From: a virus
Length of the DNA: 43,968 nucleotides
IMG/VR virus record: IMGVR_UViG_3300030045_000011
Location: 1-43,968 of that record
Reading direction: 5' to 3' (one strand)
Shown here: piece by piece, positions 11,290 through 41,098 of the stretch
Position numbering within the stretch: the stretch's first letter is position 1
How the letters are laid out: each line of letters opens with the position of its first letter
Made by a program: the position numbers and the translations under genes
Notes under the pieces: model-generated
Databases searched by the model: none
Told to the model about the DNA's origin: nothing
Seen by the model: only the letters and a program-made list of their open reading frames with translations

Positions 11290-12219
11290 ATGTCTGGGAT
11301 CCCTTTTCAACAGCTAACTCCTTCGGAATGGCAAACGTACTATCAGTCTATTGCCACTTCGCAAACTCAGCAACCGGTTGGAAATGCGATTTCGATGGCG
11401 TTCGCAGCCGTCAAAGACTATCTTGCGCTTCGTATTCGTCTTTCGATCAAGTCCAAACTTCCGCTTCCAGGTCTAGCTCCTCCAGACGCCTTAACTGCCA
11501 TTGGGCAAGAACGCGGCATCTACGCAAATCCCGGTGAGACTGATCTTGCGTACGCTGTCCGACTTCTGAATGCGTGGGCTGTCTGGCCCTACGCTGGAAC
11601 ACACCAAGGGGTTCTGCGGGCTCTCTACGACGCTGGTTATACGAACGTCGGGATCATCCAGCAACTTGGTGGATGGTACACCCTTGACGCAAACCAGAAT
11701 CTTGTGGTTACTCCAAGCCCACGGTCTTACTTTGGACCGATGTCTCCGCTCAAGAATCCAGTTTCTTGGTCAATCAGTGCGGTTTGGAATCCTGGAGACG
11801 TACTAGTTCCTTCTCCAAGGAACGGGTTCTTCTACGTTACCTCTCTTGGAGGGAATTCCGGAACTACACAACCAACCTGGAAGACATCGGTCGGCTCCAT
11901 TACGGACGAAGGATCTGTCCGATGGCAGTGTAAGGGTCAGGATTTTTGGAGTCAGTTCGCAGTCGTAATCTTTACTCCATACCCCACCGCATGGGGTGGA
12001 ACTCCTCCCGCAAATGGAACGTCTGAGGCTCTGCGGGTTGCGTCGCTTATCCGTCAATGGAAGAGTGCGCATTCCACCTGCGTAAGAATCGTTATCCCCA
12101 CCAGTGGCGAAGGATCTCTTTGGGGATACCCCGGTCCGATGACCAGCAAGACTTGGGCAACTACGAAAACACTTTGGGGCGATAACACGTCGCCTGCTCC
12201 TACCTACTGGACTCCCTAG
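11290..12219 (+). CDS. Baseplate/tail protein (Mu gp48, P2 gpI-like) with carbohydrate-binding-like insert
   Basis: Protein of 309 residues. The N-terminal 120 residues are helical and fit gpI/gp48, the adaptor between the J-like wedge and the fibres. Residues 150-220 contain the pattern W-x-P-GDVLVP ... GFFYVTSLGGNSGTTQPTW ... DEGSVRWQ, a small beta module common in phage tail and fibre proteins. The C-terminus is rich in Trp, Thr and Pro. It stands directly before the fibre gene, as expected. Confidence 0.68.
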   Translation: MSGIPFQQLTPSEWQTYYQSIATSQTQQPVGNAISMAFAAVKDYLALRIRLSIKSKLPLPGLAPPDALTAIGQERGIYANPGETDLAYAVRLLNAWAVWPYAGTHQGVLRALYDAGYTNVGIIQQLGGWYTLDANQNLVVTPSPRSYFGPMSPLKNPVSWSISAVWNPGDVLVPSPRNGFFYVTSLGGNSGTTQPTWKTSVGSITDEGSVRWQCKGQDFWSQFAVVIFTPYPTAWGGTPPANGTSEALRVASLIRQWKSAHSTCVRIVIPTSGEGSLWGYPGPMTSKTWATTKTLWGDNTSPAPTYWTP

Positions 12220-12227
12220 GAAAGATC

Positions 12228-13574
12228 ATGTCCGATCCTATTGTCGACGACCCCACAGCTTTTCCGGCAATCACTTCGCCAGATGATACCGACGTTCTAA
12301 ATGGCGCGTCGATCGCGACTTCACTTCAGCAGTTGGCGGATCGGACAGCTTACCTCAACTCGCTTTTGAATTCAGGAGCGATGCTTGAAAAATTCGAGTC
12401 AGCAACCTTTCCGCCTCCTAGTCCTTCAGGTGCATGGTCTGCTCCATCTCGTCGGTACGGATCAGACCTCGGGTACATTCGTTCTACTTCGACACCGCTT
12501 GAAGGGTCTGCAAGCGCTGATCGACCTTCAGGGCAAGCGGCGTCGCAAGTTGCATCCCTCGGGCTAGATTTTTACATCACTTCTCCAAGTCGGGTTAGTT
12601 TTTTCTTTAACCTTCTTGCGAGTAATACGAACGGAGATATACTCTCTTTCTACATTGACGGGTCAATTGTTGCCCCTCTCCAGCCGCGAGGTGATACGAT
12701 TCCGCTGAGCGGGAAATGGACGTCAGACATTCTTCGTGAAGGACACCATACATTCGACTGGAGATTTACGCAAGAGGGCACGGCTGTTTCCGGAGCGCAG
12801 GCAAAGATAGACCACGTTATGATCACTCCGGAAAGTCTCTGGATTGCGGATGCTCAGAATCGCGGACTCTTTTTTGACGATTTTCCTGGAACTGGATTAG
12901 TGACGAGTGGGCCGTGGGTTACATCGCATGGAACGAATGCGGGATCTGTAACTGTCCAGGACAGTTCTGCATTAGTCACTTGTGCAGCTTCTGCTGCGAG
13001 CGACTGGGAAGCCTTATCGCTTGCTTTCACCACAACTGGGCAAGGATGGGCAGGGTTTGAGCCTTATATCGAATGCCAGTTCCAGTTCCCAAGCTCACTG
13101 ACGAATCTAGTTGTTGAATTTGGACTTTGGGATAATGGATCCTTATCCAGTGGCGGTACTCCAAACAACTACGTTGCAGCCGTTTTTGATTCGACGGTGA
13201 ATGCAACCAAGTTCTCCCTTGGACACGATAAAGCAGGATCCGGAGCTGCCTACAGCACATGGTTCAACGGGCCTACAATCACGAATAGTTGTCATGTCCG
13301 TATCGGAATGCAAGCCGTTGGCCGTTCCAACCTTGTCGATGGGTACGCGTTCACAATCGCGTTGGTGAACGCAAGCGGGGATACTGGAGGAACCCTTTTT
13401 AGTCCGGACAGTACAATGACAATCGGGTATCCGGTATCAACTATTCCAGGTTTCCTGGATGTTGGATACACCCCATATTTTCGAGTGGGATCCAGAACTG
13501 GTGCCGGAACGAAATTCATCGCGATTGACTACTTCAAGATGCTCTCATACCGAACCACAACTCCTTCCAGTTAA
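12228..13574 (+). CDS. Tail fibre / receptor-binding protein
   Basis: Protein of 448 residues with AGGAAAG before the ATG. The acidic N-terminus (MSDPIVDDPTAFPAIT) and helix (LQQLADRTAYLNSLL) are the usual attachment part of a fibre. Residues 60-200 form a beta domain. The C-terminal 240 residues (from FFDDFPGTG) resemble a lectin-like jelly roll, with GYAFTIALVNASGD and strands ending in FIAIDYFKM. It probably decides host binding. Its stop TAA shares the TTAA palindrome with the stop of the antisense gene that follows. Confidence 0.7.
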   Translation: MSDPIVDDPTAFPAITSPDDTDVLNGASIATSLQQLADRTAYLNSLLNSGAMLEKFESATFPPPSPSGAWSAPSRRYGSDLGYIRSTSTPLEGSASADRPSGQAASQVASLGLDFYITSPSRVSFFFNLLASNTNGDILSFYIDGSIVAPLQPRGDTIPLSGKWTSDILREGHHTFDWRFTQEGTAVSGAQAKIDHVMITPESLWIADAQNRGLFFDDFPGTGLVTSGPWVTSHGTNAGSVTVQDSSALVTCAASAASDWEALSLAFTTTGQGWAGFEPYIECQFQFPSSLTNLVVEFGLWDNGSLSSGGTPNNYVAAVFDSTVNATKFSLGHDKAGSGAAYSTWFNGPTITNSCHVRIGMQAVGRSNLVDGYAFTIALVNASGDTGGTLFSPDSTMTIGYPVSTIPGFLDVGYTPYFRVGSRTGAGTKFIAIDYFKMLSYRTTTPSS

Positions 13575-13831
13575 CCGCAGAAGGTCCTCCAAAGAAATTC
13601 GGAATTTTGGATTCCTTGTGGCGTAACCGGAAGTGGGTTATCTAGTTCAACTGGCGGGAGCGAATCACTGCAGTAGCAAATACACTCCGCTGGTTGGAAC
13701 TGAGCATTGAGTTCCATCAACCCAGAAGGGCAGTAGAATTCGGAACATACCGAATCCGGAGGATTGGCCGAACTTTGGAGTTGCGTAGAGACCCCGCAGG
13801 AAACTAGCGTCACAAGAACTAGAAAGCGCAT
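13571..13831 (-). CDS. Antisense lipoprotein-like moron
   Basis: An 86-residue protein on the minus strand inside the plus-strand late block. It begins MRFLVLVTLVSC, a short signal with a lipobox (L-V-S-C) that would lipidate C12. The mature part is Cys-rich (CSEFYCPSG, ECICYCSDSLPP) and Pro-containing. Support is good: a ribosome site (AAGAGGTG) and a sigma70 promoter at 13850-13878 (TTGCAA-17-TATACT) lie directly upstream. An independently transcribed gene in a tail block is the definition of a moron. Superinfection exclusion or a spanin-like role is possible but unproven. Confidence 0.65.
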   Translation of the reverse strand: MRFLVLVTLVSCGVSTQLQSSANPPDSVCSEFYCPSGLMELNAQFQPAECICYCSDSLPPVELDNPLPVTPQGIQNSEFLWRTFCG

Positions 13832-13849
13832 GTGTCACCTCTTGGTAAA

Positions 13850-13878
13850 AGTATAACCAAGGGCTAACCCGTTTGCAA
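13850..13878 (-). promoter_or_regulatory. Sigma70-like promoter of the antisense lipoprotein gene
   Basis: On the minus strand TTGCAA (13878-13873) and TATACT (13855-13850) are separated by exactly 17 bases, close to consensus. Transcription would start near 13843, about 12 bases before the ATG at 13831. A 6-bp inverted repeat (CTTGGT/ACCAAG, 13841-13861) covers the -10 box and start site and could be an operator. Confidence 0.6.
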
Positions 13879-13889
13879 CCTGGTGAATC

Positions 13890-14363
13890 GTGAATACGTT
13901 CACAGACCGTGCAAAGAATCTTTTGAAGCGCCTGGAAGACTGCAAGTTCAAGGCTTATGAAGACGAGAAACTCGTCTGGACAATCGGGTACGGGCACACT
14001 GGACCCGACGTTGTTATGGGGCTTGTTTGGACCCAGGATCAAGCAGACCGTGCGTACGACCGAGACGTTCAGATTTTCTGCATCGGGATCAATTCGCTTA
14101 TGCGCGGCGCGATACTGAATGACAACCAGTACAGCGCTCTTGTGATCCTGGCGTACAACATTGGACTTCGCAGGTTCGCGACGAGCTCCGCGCGAGCTCT
14201 CGCCCTTGCCGGGAGTCTTTCGGAAGTCCCGGACCACATTCGTCTCTGGAACAAAGAGACGGATCCCGCGCCGCCTCACGAGCTTAAGGTCAGCCAAGGT
14301 TTGATCAACCGCCGGGAAGCCGAATGCGCGTTGTGGTCAACTCCTGTTCAGGATCCAGAATAG
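13890..14363 (+). CDS. T4-type lysozyme (glycoside hydrolase 24 endolysin)
   Basis: Protein of 157 residues with a GTG start. The active-site triad of T4 lysozyme is kept with identical spacing: E16, D25 and T31 in E-x8-D-x5-T, followed by IGYGHTG. It cleaves the glycan backbone of peptidoglycan at lysis. No signal or anchor sequence precedes the domain, so it needs a holin to reach the wall. The membrane protein at 14418 is the nearest candidate. Its C-terminus ends in a short polar tail. Confidence 0.9.
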   Translation: MNTFTDRAKNLLKRLEDCKFKAYEDEKLVWTIGYGHTGPDVVMGLVWTQDQADRAYDRDVQIFCIGINSLMRGAILNDNQYSALVILAYNIGLRRFATSSARALALAGSLSEVPDHIRLWNKETDPAPPHELKVSQGLINRREAECALWSTPVQDPE

Positions 14364-14417
14364 GATTGCAAATCTTCCCAAAGTAGTAGACGATCACTTA
14401 CCTTCAAAGGAGATTCT

Positions 14418-15155
14418 ATGTCCGGCTTTCTCGCATTCTTGGTTGCTCATCAGACGATGCTGATTTTGATCGCGTCTGCCTTCGCGCCGACCATCTTCAC
14501 GATGGTGACTGAGCACCCCACGACCTTCACTCCGGCGATCCTTGCCTTGCTGAAGTTGGTGTGCGCGAGGTTCTCTATTGCTGAGCACTACGACACCCAA
14601 TCCGAGAATCCACTGAAGTTCCCCTTACTTGCCGCCGTTCCGAGTGGCCACCCGATGGCTATCGAACTTGGGTCCGGAAGGACTACATTGACTCCTCCAA
14701 ATGGATTCGCCTTGATCCCAGTTCTGGTTGGGATCTTCCTTGCCACACTACTTCTATCGTTTTCGACTCATGCGGATCCTGTCAAGGTTGAACCGGTTCT
14801 GCCCAAGGTCGCATCGTCCGATACTCCACCGGTGACGACGACTTCGTTCGGCGGGACCGTCGGCGTCTTCAGTTTCCAACCAGCCGCGGTGGTCATTGTT
14901 ACGTCGATCAATCTTCATACAAAGAAGGTTGAAGGAGCCTTCCAACCGGGGCTCTGCTACAATGCGACTGCGTGGAAGGGCCAGTGGTACTCGGTTGGTT
15001 TGAACGCGTGCGGAAGGGTGGACTTCGTCGCGCAACAGGTATCCATCGGGGTTGTCGCAAGCGTCCTGAATGGCTATGCGTCTTTCGGGTGGTGGAAGGG
15101 CTTTATCGGGGACGTTGCAGCTCGTCTCGTTTTCGGCCCGTCGCTTAGCTTCTAA
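14418..15155 (+). CDS. Two-helix membrane protein, possible holin or lysis accessory
   Basis: Protein of 245 residues with AAAGGAG before the ATG. One transmembrane segment lies near residues 4-28 (LAFLVAHQTMLILIASAF), a second near 98-115 (ALIPVLVGIFLATLLLSF). About 125 residues after the second helix form an exported-looking beta-rich domain ending in GFIGDVAARLVFGPSLSF, like an outer-membrane or porin-type closing strand. The position after the lysozyme suggests lysis, but it is much longer than usual holins. The C-terminal domain may reach the periplasm. Confidence 0.5.
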   Translation: MSGFLAFLVAHQTMLILIASAFAPTIFTMVTEHPTTFTPAILALLKLVCARFSIAEHYDTQSENPLKFPLLAAVPSGHPMAIELGSGRTTLTPPNGFALIPVLVGIFLATLLLSFSTHADPVKVEPVLPKVASSDTPPVTTTSFGGTVGVFSFQPAAVVIVTSINLHTKKVEGAFQPGLCYNATAWKGQWYSVGLNACGRVDFVAQQVSIGVVASVLNGYASFGWWKGFIGDVAARLVFGPSLSF

Positions 15156-25063: not shown

Positions 25064-25651
25064 CTACTTTCCGTTGATATCAGCGAGTTGGAAGAATTCC
25101 ATGCGAGCAGCCGGGTCCTTCTTGATCACGCCTCGGAGCGCCGACGTAACCGTTTCCTCACCCTGCTTGTGGACACCGCGCGACTCCATGCAAAAGTGTC
25201 GAGCCTTGATCACCACGGCAACGCCTTTCGGAGCAAGATGCTCTTCGATGGCGTTTGCGATCTGCTTGGTAAGCCGCTCCTGAACTTGGAGCCGCTTTGC
25301 GTAGATGTCCACAAGGCGTGCAAGCTTGGAGAGCCCAACGATCTTCTCGTTTGGAATGTACGAGACAGTCGCGGTCCCGAAGAACGGAGCCATGTGGTGT
25401 TCGCAGTGGGAGTAGAATGGGATGTTGCGGACCATGACGAATTCGTCATACTCTTCCGCTCCGTCCTCAAAGACCTTGAGGACATCCTCGGGCTTCTGGT
25501 TGTATCCCGAGAGCCATTCTCCCCACGCCTTCGCAACCCGGAGTGGCGTCTCCTTTAGACCTTCCCGGGTCGGATTCGGGACAAGAAGTTCGATTATCGC
25601 CTCTACGGAATCCGAGACCATAAGAAGCCTTGCAGCGATCTTTTTACTCAC
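25064..25651 (-). CDS. folE: GTP cyclohydrolase I
   Basis: Protein of 195 residues, GTG start overlapping the end of queD by 8 bases. Zinc ligands C83 and H86 lie in [10 protein letters not shown] and C154 in HFCMESRGV; the E-R-L-T-K-Q-I helix is also kept. It converts GTP to dihydroneopterin triphosphate, the first step of both folate and 7-deazaguanine synthesis. In this operon the pterin would feed QueD. All residues needed for activity appear present. Confidence 0.95.
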
Positions 25652-26099
25652 CTGAGTTCACCGTTTGGAGAGAGTAGGTTGCTGCGCACTTCGCGGTCTC
25701 TTCAACCTTGACAGCGACCAGGACGCACCCGGTCCCAAGGAGTTGCTCAGGTCCGACGATCTGGACCAGGAACTTCGCCATGTTTTCAGCCGTCGGGTTG
25801 AACGAGCTCCAGATGACGGTCGAATCCGCTTTCTTTAGAATGGTAGCGAGAGGATCTCTTTCCCAGATCAAGAACTTATGATCCCAGTGGTTTTCAAGCC
25901 ACATGCACAACTTCGACTTGATCACGGAGAAGTCCAGAACCCGCCCGACAGCGTCTACCGATTCGGGATTCTCTTGCTGGACTACAAAATGGATTCTGTA
26001 GTTGTGCCCGTGCAAATTCGCACACTTCGATTCGTGTCTGCAAACACGATGGCCGACCGAGATATCGTGGTAGCGAACCGCCTCGATAACTCCGGCCAT
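25644..26099 (-). CDS. queD: 6-carboxy-tetrahydropterin synthase QueD
   Basis: Protein of 151 residues from ATG 26099 (TAATG overlap with queC, AAGGTG ribosome site). Zinc histidines H17, H30 and H32 and catalytic C26 are visible in SVGHRV and [18 protein letters not shown] and NPTAENMA are also typical. It converts dihydroneopterin triphosphate to 6-carboxy-tetrahydropterin, the second step to preQ0. Confidence 0.94.
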
Positions 26100-26881
26100 T
26101 ACGACACCTTCCCAAGAAGAGCCGCATACTTCTTGACGATGTCCTGCCCGTAGTTCACGGTACTCGGGAGATCCATTGCGTCGGTCATCCATGCACGAAG
26201 CACAAGGGGATCAGGAATTCCGGCTTCTTCGAAACCCTTCGCACGGAGCAGACTTGCATGATCCCTCCCGGTCGGAGGGTAGATACCATCGTAAGCGGTA
26301 TGGGAGTACGCAAGAGCTTCGTAGCACCCTGGAAGCTCCATCGCCAACTCTACCGACTGTGCCTTAGTCAGATTCATCAACGGTGTTTCAATCTGGAGCG
26401 GTTGCGGAGCACCCGGCTCGCCAGTAAAGGTTCCGAGATTGCAGGCAACCTGCAAAGCCAGAATGAAGTTTCTCCTGCAATCCGGATATCCTCCGTAATC
26501 TTCTTCGCACACGCCGGTGACAAGGCGCGTTGCCCCGATAACAGCTGCGCGGTTGGCAGCTACAGTCAAGAAAAGCTGGTTCCGCATGGGGACGAAGGTC
26601 TTTTCCAGCCCTCCCGGAAGGCTCGAATGATCCTTGTACTGCTCAAGAAGGTTCCCAGAAATGAGTGGTGAGGACCCGACCAGAATCGCTCCCAGCCGAA
26701 CGACTTCCATAGACTTTACGGACGCGAGCTCTGCGATCCGCAAAGCAGACTGGATCTCGAGTCGATGCCGCTGGCCATAGTCGAAGGTAACCGCGTGGAC
26801 CTCCCACCCCTGTTGTTTCGCCCAGAAGAGGCAGGTGGTGGAATCTTGACCGCCAGAAAGAACAACGAGAGCTTTTTCCAT
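26099..26881 (-). CDS. queC: QueC-like preQ0 synthase lacking the zinc cysteines
   Basis: Protein of 260 residues. The ATP-binding PP-loop S9-GGQDS, FDYGQRHR and VTGVCEEDYGGYPDCR are well kept. The zinc site of cellular QueC, C-x8-9-C-x2-C-x2-C before the conserved LRA-x-GF, reads A196 ... T204-G-R-D207-H-A-S210 here: all four cysteines replaced although the surrounding residues still align. QueC turns carboxy-deazaguanine (CDG) into the amide (ADG) and then preQ0 using two ATP. The variant may fold without metal or stop at the amide. Its stop overlaps the queD start and its own start overlaps the queE stop. Confidence 0.9.
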   Translation of the reverse strand: MEKALVVLSGGQDSTTCLFWAKQQGWEVHAVTFDYGQRHRLEIQSALRIAELASVKSMEVVRLGAILVGSSPLISGNLLEQYKDHSSLPGGLEKTFVPMRNQLFLTVAANRAAVIGATRLVTGVCEEDYGGYPDCRRNFILALQVACNLGTFTGEPGAPQPLQIETPLMNLTKAQSVELAMELPGCYEALAYSHTAYDGIYPPTGRDHASLLRAKGFEEAGIPDPLVLRAWMTDAMDLPSTVNYGQDIVKKYAALLGKVS

Positions 26882-27609
26882 TATGGAACTCCGTAGATTT
26901 TGTGCATCTGGACGCCGAGAGTGTAGCCGAATGCAACAGCCGAATCAAAAGCGGCTTTCATGTGCCGCTTGTTTTCTTCCTGGTCGCCAGAATCGACCGG
27001 GTGGATGTAGATCTTTCCGTAGAATTCCCATCCCTTCGGCGGTCGGAAGACCCTCGGAAAAGCCGAATGGTTCAGAGCTGTTAAGGGTAGGCCGTCTTCC
27101 GAATCAACGTAGTCCGCATGGAGCACGTACTTCAGTGCGTCGACATGCGGGAGGAGCTCGCGATTGACTTGCCCCGTCTTGGGACTGCAAACAACCGTGA
27201 GGTCGAAAAGGAGGTGGTTTTCAAGACCGCTCCAAAGGTCGACAAAGAGTGTCCCATTGGTTTCGATCTGGACCCGGTGCCCAGCCCGGAGAAGGCTGTG
27301 GACAAGGGGGCGGATGTTCTGGCGAAAGGGCTCTCCACCAGTCAGAACAACTAACTCTGAATCGGCTTCATCCTTGATGGATTCCAGAATGTACTCAACT
27401 TCGATCAGATTCTCTGCGATGCCAGTTACAGTGTAGTCCGTATCGCAAAGCGGACACTGGAGGTTGCACCCGCCGAGCCGGACAAAAACGGATCGCTCCC
27501 CTGCAAACGGCCCTTCCCCTTGGATTGTTCCAAATACGGAGTGGACTACGAGTTTCCCGTCCGGGTTAAGTTCTTGCTTCGAAATGGGCTGCGCATTCGG
27601 AAGTTTCAT
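26881..27609 (-). CDS. queE: 7-carboxy-7-deazaguanine synthase QueE
   Basis: Protein of 242 residues, first gene of the modification operon. The radical SAM cluster motif C48-x3-C52-x2-C55 (GGCNLQCPLCDTDY), FGTIQGEGPFAG and LTGGEPF are visible. It contracts 6-carboxy-tetrahydropterin to CDG, the substrate of QueC. AGGTCTC precedes the ATG at moderate quality. The C-terminal GVQMHKIYGVP matches QueE. No residue loss is seen. Confidence 0.94.
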   Translation of the reverse strand: MKLPNAQPISKQELNPDGKLVVHSVFGTIQGEGPFAGERSVFVRLGGCNLQCPLCDTDYTVTGIAENLIEVEYILESIKDEADSELVVLTGGEPFRQNIRPLVHSLLRAGHRVQIETNGTLFVDLWSGLENHLLFDLTVVCSPKTGQVNRELLPHVDALKYVLHADYVDSEDGLPLTALNHSAFPRVFRPPKGWEFYGKIYIHPVDSGDQEENKRHMKAAFDSAVAFGYTLGVQMHKIYGVP

Positions 27610-38821: not shown

Positions 38822-41098
38822 GTGCAATGGCACAATATTCCGGCAGAGCTCCGTGCTTTGCCGCAGTGGGTTGTTTGTGCGAGCTACGAGGACAAAGCTC
38901 CTCGCAATCCAAGAACCGGCAACCTTGCTTCTTCTACAGATCCGACCACTTGGGGGACTTTTGAAGAAGCTTGCCATGCCGGATACAAGTTCATCGGATT
39001 TGCATTTTCGGAGTCGGATCCGTTCGCCGTAATCGATCTCGACGATAAGCTCACCAATCCAGCCACGCAAGAGGATCTGGAACGGCATAAAAAGATCCTA
39101 GACGCATTCGCCAGCTACACAGAGCGATCCGTCTCTGGACGTGGTTACCACATTGTCGTCAAGGGATCAATCCCGTCTGGCGTAAACAAGGACCACGTCG
39201 AAGTCTACAGCTCCGGTCGCTATATGATCTGCACGGGCGACGTGGTTCGTCAGGCTCCGGTCGCAGACTACAGCGAACTCCTTCTGACATTAGTCACGGA
39301 GATGCGCCCTCCCACTCCGCCATTGCAGGAGGAGGACGAGCTTCTTGAGGATCGGGAAGTGTTCGAGATGGCAGACAGTGCCGTCAACGCGGAAAAGTTC
39401 CGCGACCTATGCAACGGCCTATGGCAAGAGATGGGGTACGGCTCCCAATCAGAAGCGGATTTCGCTCTTCTCTCCATGTACTGCTTTTACTCAAGGAGTA
39501 ACGAGCAGGTTCGGCGTCTGTTCAGATACTCCAAGCTCGGGCAACGCGAAAAGGCTATTCGAAACGACAAGTACCTCGATTACGCGCTCGAGAAGATCCG
39601 GGCAAAGCAGCCTACTCACATTGATTTCAATGCCCTATTGGCCCCGCAACCGTCAACGCCCGTGCCGGTGGCCCCGCAAACGGCCGTAATAGCCTTGCAA
39701 AGCCCCGCGCCCTTAGCGGTTACTACCCTGCTACCGCCTGCCAAAGCGCCTCCAGCCTTGCCGGGAATTGAACTTCCGCCCGGTCTGGTCGGCGAAATCG
39801 CTCTTTACTTCTATCAGTCAGCAGTTCGCCCGGTGCCGGATATTGCTCTTGCTGGAGCGCTGGCCTTGTGCGCTGGAGTCGTTGGTAGATCCTACAACAT
39901 CTCCGGTGTTGGTCTGAATCAGTACCTTATCCTTATCGCTCGAACTGGAGCGGGCAAAGAAGGCGTCGCTACTGGCATTGACGCGATGATAGCGGCAGTT
40001 CGGCCACAGATACCGATGGTGGACCAGTTCGTCGGTCCATCAGCGTTTGCGTCAGGGCAAGCTCTCATCAAGATTCTGGATAAGAAGCCCTGCTTTGTGT
40101 CGGTACTCGGCGAGTTCGGTCTTACACTCCAGCAACTATGTGACCCAAATGCGATTTCGGCACAAGTCATGCTCCGAAAAGTATTACTCGACCTCTGGAG
40201 CAAATCGGGTTGGAACAAAATGCTCCAAAGTTCCGTCTACTCCGACGTCGAGAAAAACACACAGGTCATCCAAAGCCCCAATGTTACCATCTTGGGTGAG
40301 TCGACCCCCGAGACTTTCTTCGAAGGTCTCGACGCCTCGCACATCGCCGACGGACTTATTCCTCGATTCAGTATTATTCAATATGATGGACATCGTCCAC
40401 CACGGAACAAAGACGCGGGGCATCCCCCAGGAGAGGAACTTACCCGCCGGTTTGGGGACATGGTCGCCGTTGCACTCACGACTTCCAATAATCGAAGTTG
40501 CATGGGAGTCGCTACTGATTCCGCGGCTCAGTCTATACTCGACAAATTCGACGAATCTTGTGATAGCGAAATCAACGGAACTCACGGAAACGATGTCGAA
40601 CGACAGGTCTGGAATCGCGCGCACCTTAAAGCGCTCAAACTCGCTGCGCTTCTTGCGGTAGGCGTTAATCCGCACCAGCCTGTGGTTACAGCCGAGCTTG
40701 CGAATTGGGCCATCAAATTCGTCTGCAAAGACGTAATGACGATGGTCGACAGGTTTAAGTCTGGCGACGTTGGAGCAGGCGACTCCAAGCTCGGGTCGGA
40801 CCTCAAGCATGTAATCGAATTCTACTTCAAGAATCCGTTTGAGAAAATCGAGAAGTACGGTGTCGAATTTCCAATGTTCAAAGACAAGGCGATTCCGTAC
40901 TGCTACCTTCTACGGAAAACCGCAGGGCTCGCCGCCTTCCGGAAGGACAAGCGAGGGAGCACTGCGGCTTTGAAGAGCGCTATCCAAGACCTTATGGATG
41001 CGAACATGCTAGCGGAGATCCCCTCGGTACAGATTATGACACGGTTCAACGCCAAGGGGAGAGCATTCGTGCTCGGGAACGCCTGGAAGATTAAGTAG
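38822..41098 (+). CDS. Primase-polymerase fused to DUF3987 helicase-like domain
   Basis: Protein of 758 residues, GTG start after AAGGAG. Residues 1-165 form an archaeo-eukaryotic-type prim-pol domain: R-N-PRTG, catalytic D72-L-D74 in AVIDLDD, and S-x-RGYH110. Residues 190-250 are the helical linker common in such proteins (SEADFALLSMYCFY ... YLDYALEKI). Residues 330-745 match DUF3987, with Walker A ARTGAGKEG (K379). It should prime and unwind phage DNA for the family A polymerase. It is on the opposite strand from most replication genes. Confidence 0.85.
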   Translation: MQWHNIPAELRALPQWVVCASYEDKAPRNPRTGNLASSTDPTTWGTFEEACHAGYKFIGFAFSESDPFAVIDLDDKLTNPATQEDLERHKKILDAFASYTERSVSGRGYHIVVKGSIPSGVNKDHVEVYSSGRYMICTGDVVRQAPVADYSELLLTLVTEMRPPTPPLQEEDELLEDREVFEMADSAVNAEKFRDLCNGLWQEMGYGSQSEADFALLSMYCFYSRSNEQVRRLFRYSKLGQREKAIRNDKYLDYALEKIRAKQPTHIDFNALLAPQPSTPVPVAPQTAVIALQSPAPLAVTTLLPPAKAPPALPGIELPPGLVGEIALYFYQSAVRPVPDIALAGALALCAGVVGRSYNISGVGLNQYLILIARTGAGKEGVATGIDAMIAAVRPQIPMVDQFVGPSAFASGQALIKILDKKPCFVSVLGEFGLTLQQLCDPNAISAQVMLRKVLLDLWSKSGWNKMLQSSVYSDVEKNTQVIQSPNVTILGESTPETFFEGLDASHIADGLIPRFSIIQYDGHRPPRNKDAGHPPGEELTRRFGDMVAVALTTSNNRSCMGVATDSAAQSILDKFDESCDSEINGTHGNDVERQVWNRAHLKALKLAALLAVGVNPHQPVVTAELANWAIKFVCKDVMTMVDRFKSGDVGAGDSKLGSDLKHVIEFYFKNPFEKIEKYGVEFPMFKDKAIPYCYLLRKTAGLAAFRKDKRGSTAALKSAIQDLMDANMLAEIPSVQIMTRFNAKGRAFVLGNAWKIK

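Follow-up and report, generated by a model that had tools for sequence, protein, structure and literature searches.

The DNA analysed here (the window) comprises positions 1 to 43,968 of the IMG/VR virus record IMGVR_UViG_3300030045_000011, whose sheath (DUF2586), baseplate J, spike and other tail proteins match those of Myxococcus phage Mx4, with 39% identity for baseplate J. The late block of this phage consists mostly of abutting genes, except for a gap of 315 nt between the tail-fibre and lysozyme genes that is occupied by an ORF on the opposite strand (Table 1). A preliminary description of this DNA had proposed a minus-strand ORF with the lipobox LVSC that shares the nucleotides TTAA with the end of the fibre gene, and both features are indeed present. 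The predicted protein begins with MRFLVLVTLVSC, followed by GVSTQ, and its sequence pattern is that of a lipoprotein signal peptide, with Arg2, a hydrophobic core and the lipobox at Cys12, one of seven cysteines in total.

Table 1 Features of the fibre–lysis junction in the window and of related loci (L numbers)
Feature	Sequence	Position	Strand	Remarks
Predicted lipoprotein gene, 86 aa	Window	13571..13831	−	ATG at 13831; lipobox LVSC, Cys12 (predicted acylated) and six further Cys
Shine–Dalgarno AGAGGTG	Window	13836..13842	−	4 nt ahead of the ATG
Candidate promoter, sigma-70-like TTGCAA-17-TATACT	Window	13850..13878	−	9/12 match; hexamers at 13878-13873 and 13855-13850
TTAA common to the convergent stop codons of the antisense and fibre genes	Window	13571..13574		4-nt overlap
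Terminator candidate, stem-loop	Window	13584-13563	−	Weak, without T run
Tail-fibre gene, putative receptor-binding	Window	12228..13574	+	Conserved N-terminal anchor, variable C-terminal part
Phage lysozyme gene (PF00959), start of lysis region	Window	13890..14363	+	Flanks the antisense gene on the other side
preQ0 pathway genes	Window	25064-27609	−	GTP cyclohydrolase I, PTPS/QueD, QueC, radical-SAM (QueE-like)
DUF3987 protein gene	Window	38822-41098	+	Weak NrS-1 polymerase HBD domain match
Slot gene WNM70406.1	Mx4 (L004)	40561-40965 (L004 12522-12926)	−	Annotated only as hypothetical
Slot gene	L066	3780-4514	−	Lipobox LGC, collagen-like repeats
Unimolecular-spanin-like protein gene	L006	15685-16152	+	Lipobox and C-terminal TM
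Unimolecular-spanin-like protein gene	L008	12946-13485	+	Lipobox and C-terminal TM
Unimolecular-spanin-like protein gene	L080	15158-15649	+	Lipobox and C-terminal TM
Truncated lysozyme-like start	L080	13757-14305		Beside minus-strand HNH endonuclease-like ORF (by eye)
Short frame, ~42 aa	L003	4403-4531	−	Stop overlaps fibre stop
GTG-started exported candidate	L105	4453-4896	−	HExxH motif (HELGH)
Antisense lipoprotein gene	L013	7648-8037	−	Lipobox LGAC
Antisense lipoprotein gene	L082	6944-7378	−	Lipobox LVAC

Taken alone, the evidence for this ORF is modest. Its codon score ranks first among the six frames, but compared with gene windows of this phage it lies only at the 5th percentile, and shadow ORFs reach it in 14% of cases. 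The TTGCAA-17-TATACT and GAGGTG motifs that had been described ahead of it are where they were said to be, and a G-rich Shine–Dalgarno sequence is found at the same start in most relatives that carry an antisense gene. Because no co-oriented gene lies upstream, a promoter of its own is logically needed, as the preliminary description held, but the sigma-70 site that it named is within chance expectation. Specifically, sites of this 9/12 type number 3 in 4 kb versus 2.1 ± 1.5 in shuffled sequences, and a score as high is reached by 13% of upstream stretches of 120 nt after shuffling, and thus the site is not significant by itself. No conserved promoter was found ahead of the antisense genes of relatives. 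As to a terminator, the minus strand offers only a weak stem-loop that lacks a T run.

Homology searches with the 86-aa protein found no relative in Pfam, PHROGs, IMG/VR, phage records, genome contigs or 377 Myxococcota genomes, where a single match with E=0.0096 is at chance level. The AlphaFold models of this protein (pLDDT 45) and of the fibre (pLDDT 46) are unusable. The absence of homologues, the modest codon score and the chance-level promoter are what would be expected of a frame that is open by chance and whose N terminus happens to resemble a lipobox; however, this explanation is made very unlikely by the position of the ORF, its Shine–Dalgarno sequence, the precise overlap of the stop codons and the presence of similar ORFs at this junction in relatives. 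It is position that makes the ORF credible, and positional conservation in relatives is the decisive support.

To read this junction elsewhere, baseplate-J relatives were gathered from IMG/VR and genomes, the fibre gene was found via its conserved N-terminus and the region behind it was read. The count took in ATG-started ORFs of 80–260 aa on the minus strand that have a hydrophobic N-terminus and whose end falls within −30 to +40 nt of a plus-gene stop; those at fibre stops are here called slot genes. Among the first relatives, such genes are present in Mx4, L006, L008, L011, L012, L014 and L017, and they are likewise present in L080 and L081, which were read after the criteria had been fixed. 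Lipoboxes are LGAC in Mx4, PGGC in L012, LVTC in L014, LVGC in L017, AVAC in L080, ATAC in L081 and an atypical IVEC in L008, and the slot proteins of L006 (a multi-TM protein) and L011 carry a signal peptide without a lipobox. The exact 4-nt overlap of stop codons seen in the window recurs in L014, L017, L081 and L117.

Slot genes are concentrated at fibre stops. In the baseplate-J set they occur at 10 of 21 fibre stops versus 1 of 222 other plus-gene stops (Fisher test, 2.3e-11), and the combined strict count is 11 of 36 resolved fibre ends versus 3 of 374 (1.5e-10). These p values are indicative, given that the loci have common ancestry and that the control stops were obtained by calling ORFs mechanically. 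The baseplate-J result is stable for hydrophobicity cut-offs of 2.0–2.8, with 5/21 versus 0/222 at the strictest. The combined positives lie on the minus strand, encode a signal peptide and mostly a lipobox, and end between 7 nt before and 25 nt after the fibre stop. A third set, found via another tail gene, yielded 1 of 15 fibre stops versus 2 of 152 others (p 0.25), its sole positive being L117. Among baseplate-J relatives with at least 37% identity and DNA beyond the fibre gene, 8 of 10 have a slot gene (L004, L006, L008, L011, L012, L014, L017 and L080; the negatives are L009 and L010). The gene is also absent from L013, L015, L016, L023 and others, and because the third set is weak by itself we regard the slot as characteristic of some members of the lineage. 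These patterns, in which an extra gene within the late block is missing from some relatives and recurs at the same junction in others, including Mx4, support the earlier proposal of an antisense lipoprotein in a moron slot beside the fibre gene. Indeed, we consider it very likely that positions 13571-13831 hold a real gene in a conserved slot.

Several loci lie at the margins of this survey. The closest relative, L003, has only 153 nt beyond the fibre gene and no ORF of such size there; its short frame, which includes a signal-peptide-like stretch and competes with a 38-aa plus frame, is either a remnant or a product of chance. In Myxococcota genomes, the slot is missing from many distantly related loci of prophage or tail-like type, where the next gene is mostly a second fibre-like gene. 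Neither of two further loci was counted as a fibre match: L105, where the candidate with a metallopeptidase motif located 5 nt behind the fibre stop starts with GTG and was left out by the strict rule, and L136, where a lipoprotein gene is convergent with the last tail gene and the fibre gene lies upstream of baseplate J. Antisense lipoproteins also occur at other tail-block junctions in L013 and L082, and these perhaps represent a second cargo slot.

The slot, rather than any one sequence, is what is conserved. Its contents are mostly non-homologous, and a single lipoprotein family is shared by L014, L081 and L066. The L014 and L081 proteins are 33% identical (tblastn 1e-10), and when the 377 Myxococcota genomes were searched with this pair, 27 proved to contain relatives, which mostly form portions of larger proteins; the collagen-like/DUF7481 lipoproteins of the slot are thus related to host proteins. 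The same search led to L066, a Myxococcota prophage whose lipoprotein gene lies behind a fibre gene, 4 nt from the fibre stop, and the arrangement was thereby reached a second time, starting from the lipoprotein. This family, at least, is under protein-level conservation; further members were sought in IMG/VR and none was found.

Genes just behind fibre genes commonly encode chaperones or alternative fibre segments. The position of the window gene would suit a fibre-assembly chaperone or an invertible fibre segment, but its product has a signal peptide and lipobox and no similarity to fibre sequences, which leaves such a role extremely improbable. An invertible cassette was also sought through repeats, and positions 12000-14500 hold neither inverted nor direct ones.

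On its other side the gene adjoins the lysozyme gene, and a small lipoprotein in this position could be the outer-membrane (Rz1-like) spanin subunit of the lysis region, particularly as no other spanin is recognised in the late block of the window. However, it lies on the strand opposite to the lysis genes and has no inner-membrane partner (no i-spanin candidate is found at 13–20 kb), and an Rz1-type identity is disfavoured on these two grounds. Furthermore, L006, L008 and L080 encode, besides the antisense protein, a distinct protein on the plus strand with a lipobox and C-terminal TM, as in unimolecular spanins, although PHROGs did not recognise the two of these that were tested as spanins. 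A spanin role is accordingly most improbable. In L080, the truncated lysozyme-like start is followed by a GH19-like endolysin.

The window phage is probably virulent, as judged from its genes for polymerase A, ThyX, DNA ligase and a preQ0 cluster and from the lack of a recognised integrase. The preQ0 genes stand in a row that suggests 7-deazaguanine DNA modification, and the DUF3987 protein is a possible primase-helicase. With no integrase recognised and a phage-encoded polymerase, expression of the antisense gene in lysogeny, or lysogenic conversion, is unlikely for this phage. Mx4, for its part, is virulent (PMC6070905, PMC10720576). Integrase-type genes are present in L080 and, as read by eye, in L006, and such carriers may be temperate.

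This bears on whether the slot holds general surface-conversion cargo, that is, exported proteins of any kind that benefit the infected cell or the host of a prophage in social interaction, predation or stress and block no phage receptor. The varied contents, from Cys-rich and collagen-like/DUF7481 lipoproteins to the multi-TM protein of L006 and the HExxH protein of L105, favour this explanation, as do the integrase-type genes, making it possible mainly for their carriers. However, phages that look virulent, such as the window phage and Mx4 (PMC6070905), leave little time for host benefit, and the tie to the fibre junction is left unexplained; we consider this account somewhat unlikely. Nevertheless, the proteins without a lipobox (L006 and L011) and with HExxH (L105) mean that one function shared by all slot genes is not certain.

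The best explanation is that the position between the fibre and lysis genes of Mx4-like phages is a slot for moron cargo, rapidly exchanged and oriented opposite to the late genes. For the arrangement as a whole, we favour a swappable envelope-protein slot whose product would mask the receptor, with a probability of roughly 0.5. If this model is correct, the antisense gene would be transcribed from its own promoter and hence out of phase with the late operon, and the protein would be a Sec substrate, would be lipidated by signal peptidase II and would end up in the outer membrane; that it acts in the envelope is likely. There the lipoprotein would mask or distort the receptor used by the neighbouring fibre, or the receptor's surroundings, such that additional virions do not attach to the infected cell and progeny are not wasted on debris, as proposed by analogy with T5 Llp on FhuA. 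Blocking of phages or a change of the cell surface, as suggested earlier for this gene, is plausible by analogy with T5 llp, N15 cor and P2 fun. Exclusion of the receptor type specifically is put forward tentatively, at slightly less than even odds. It is preferred because of the T5, P2 and BF23 precedents and because the fibres of window-related phages have a conserved N-terminus and a variable remainder, a sequence pattern that host-recognition proteins would be expected to show. Exclusion that is matched to the receptor would also fit the rapid replacement of one lipoprotein by another, unrelated one at a single position.

A stricter form of this model, in which every fibre allele of Mx4-like phages is paired with a particular exported blocker on the opposite strand, the blockers being non-homologous and some of them drawn from host surface-protein families, is decidedly unlikely. 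The window and L006 have fibres that are homologous over their full length (34%) but antisense proteins that are not related, and this speaks against a close match between fibre and blocker. If the pairing were true, the slot would identify natural receptor-masking lipoproteins for a whole Myxococcota phage lineage. In those myxobacteria that trade outer-membrane lipoproteins, a blocker could then even pass to uninfected kin.

We found no report of superinfection-exclusion genes of myxobacterial phages in the literature searched. Candidates for such genes can be read directly from the slot. Mx4, which serves in the laboratory as a transducing phage of Myxococcus xanthus, carries one of them, and the exclusion idea is thus directly testable. 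Homology searches do not reveal the slot and the strand has been miscalled once in Mx4, and such genes have therefore probably been missed elsewhere. Specifically, the two independent Mx4 annotations disagree at this place: OR576728 has the minus-strand WNM70406.1, whereas OK085710 has plus-strand ORFs and lacks the minus-strand lipoprotein, and one of the two calls the wrong strand. Like the window gene, WNM70406.1 encodes a minus-strand lipoprotein convergent with the fibre gene of a related tail module, but it is 134 aa long, unrelated in sequence and separated from the fibre stop by 24 nt.

Two features of Llp- and Cor-type exclusion genes are found in the window gene: the predicted lipoprotein signal peptide and adjacency to the fibre gene, here with a 4-nt overlap. 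Its product has no PHROG, Pfam or phage-genome match to Llp or Cor, but such similarity is not strictly defining, as the BF23 and T5 Llp proteins are themselves mutually unrelated (PMC4728585). N15 Cor, of the phi80/T1 type, is also a small exclusion protein encoded among fibre genes (PMC9586334), although cor lies on the same strand as the tail genes. The P2 gene fun(Z), annotated as blocking T5 growth, is antisense and convergent behind the fibre genes H-G in the tail region of a contractile-tail phage, as is the window gene behind its own fibre gene, but it encodes a large protein (a 1587-nt gene) in a temperate phage. In T5, an Escherichia coli siphophage whose Llp has no sequence similarity to the window protein, llp has its own annotated promoter and lies on the strand opposite to the adjacent oad, to which it is divergent (head to head) rather than convergent. 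The periplasmic T5 Llp constrains loops of FhuA in a conformation to which T5 pb5 is unable to bind (PMC9586334), an activity shown for that protein and proposed for the one in the window. BF23 Llp, which is not homologous to T5 Llp, plays the equivalent role for BtuB (PMC4728585). Like the window gene, these encode small lipoproteins on the strand opposite to an adjacent receptor-binding gene, and unrelated sequences serve in the same role, a pattern that resembles the single slot with its unrelated lipoproteins.
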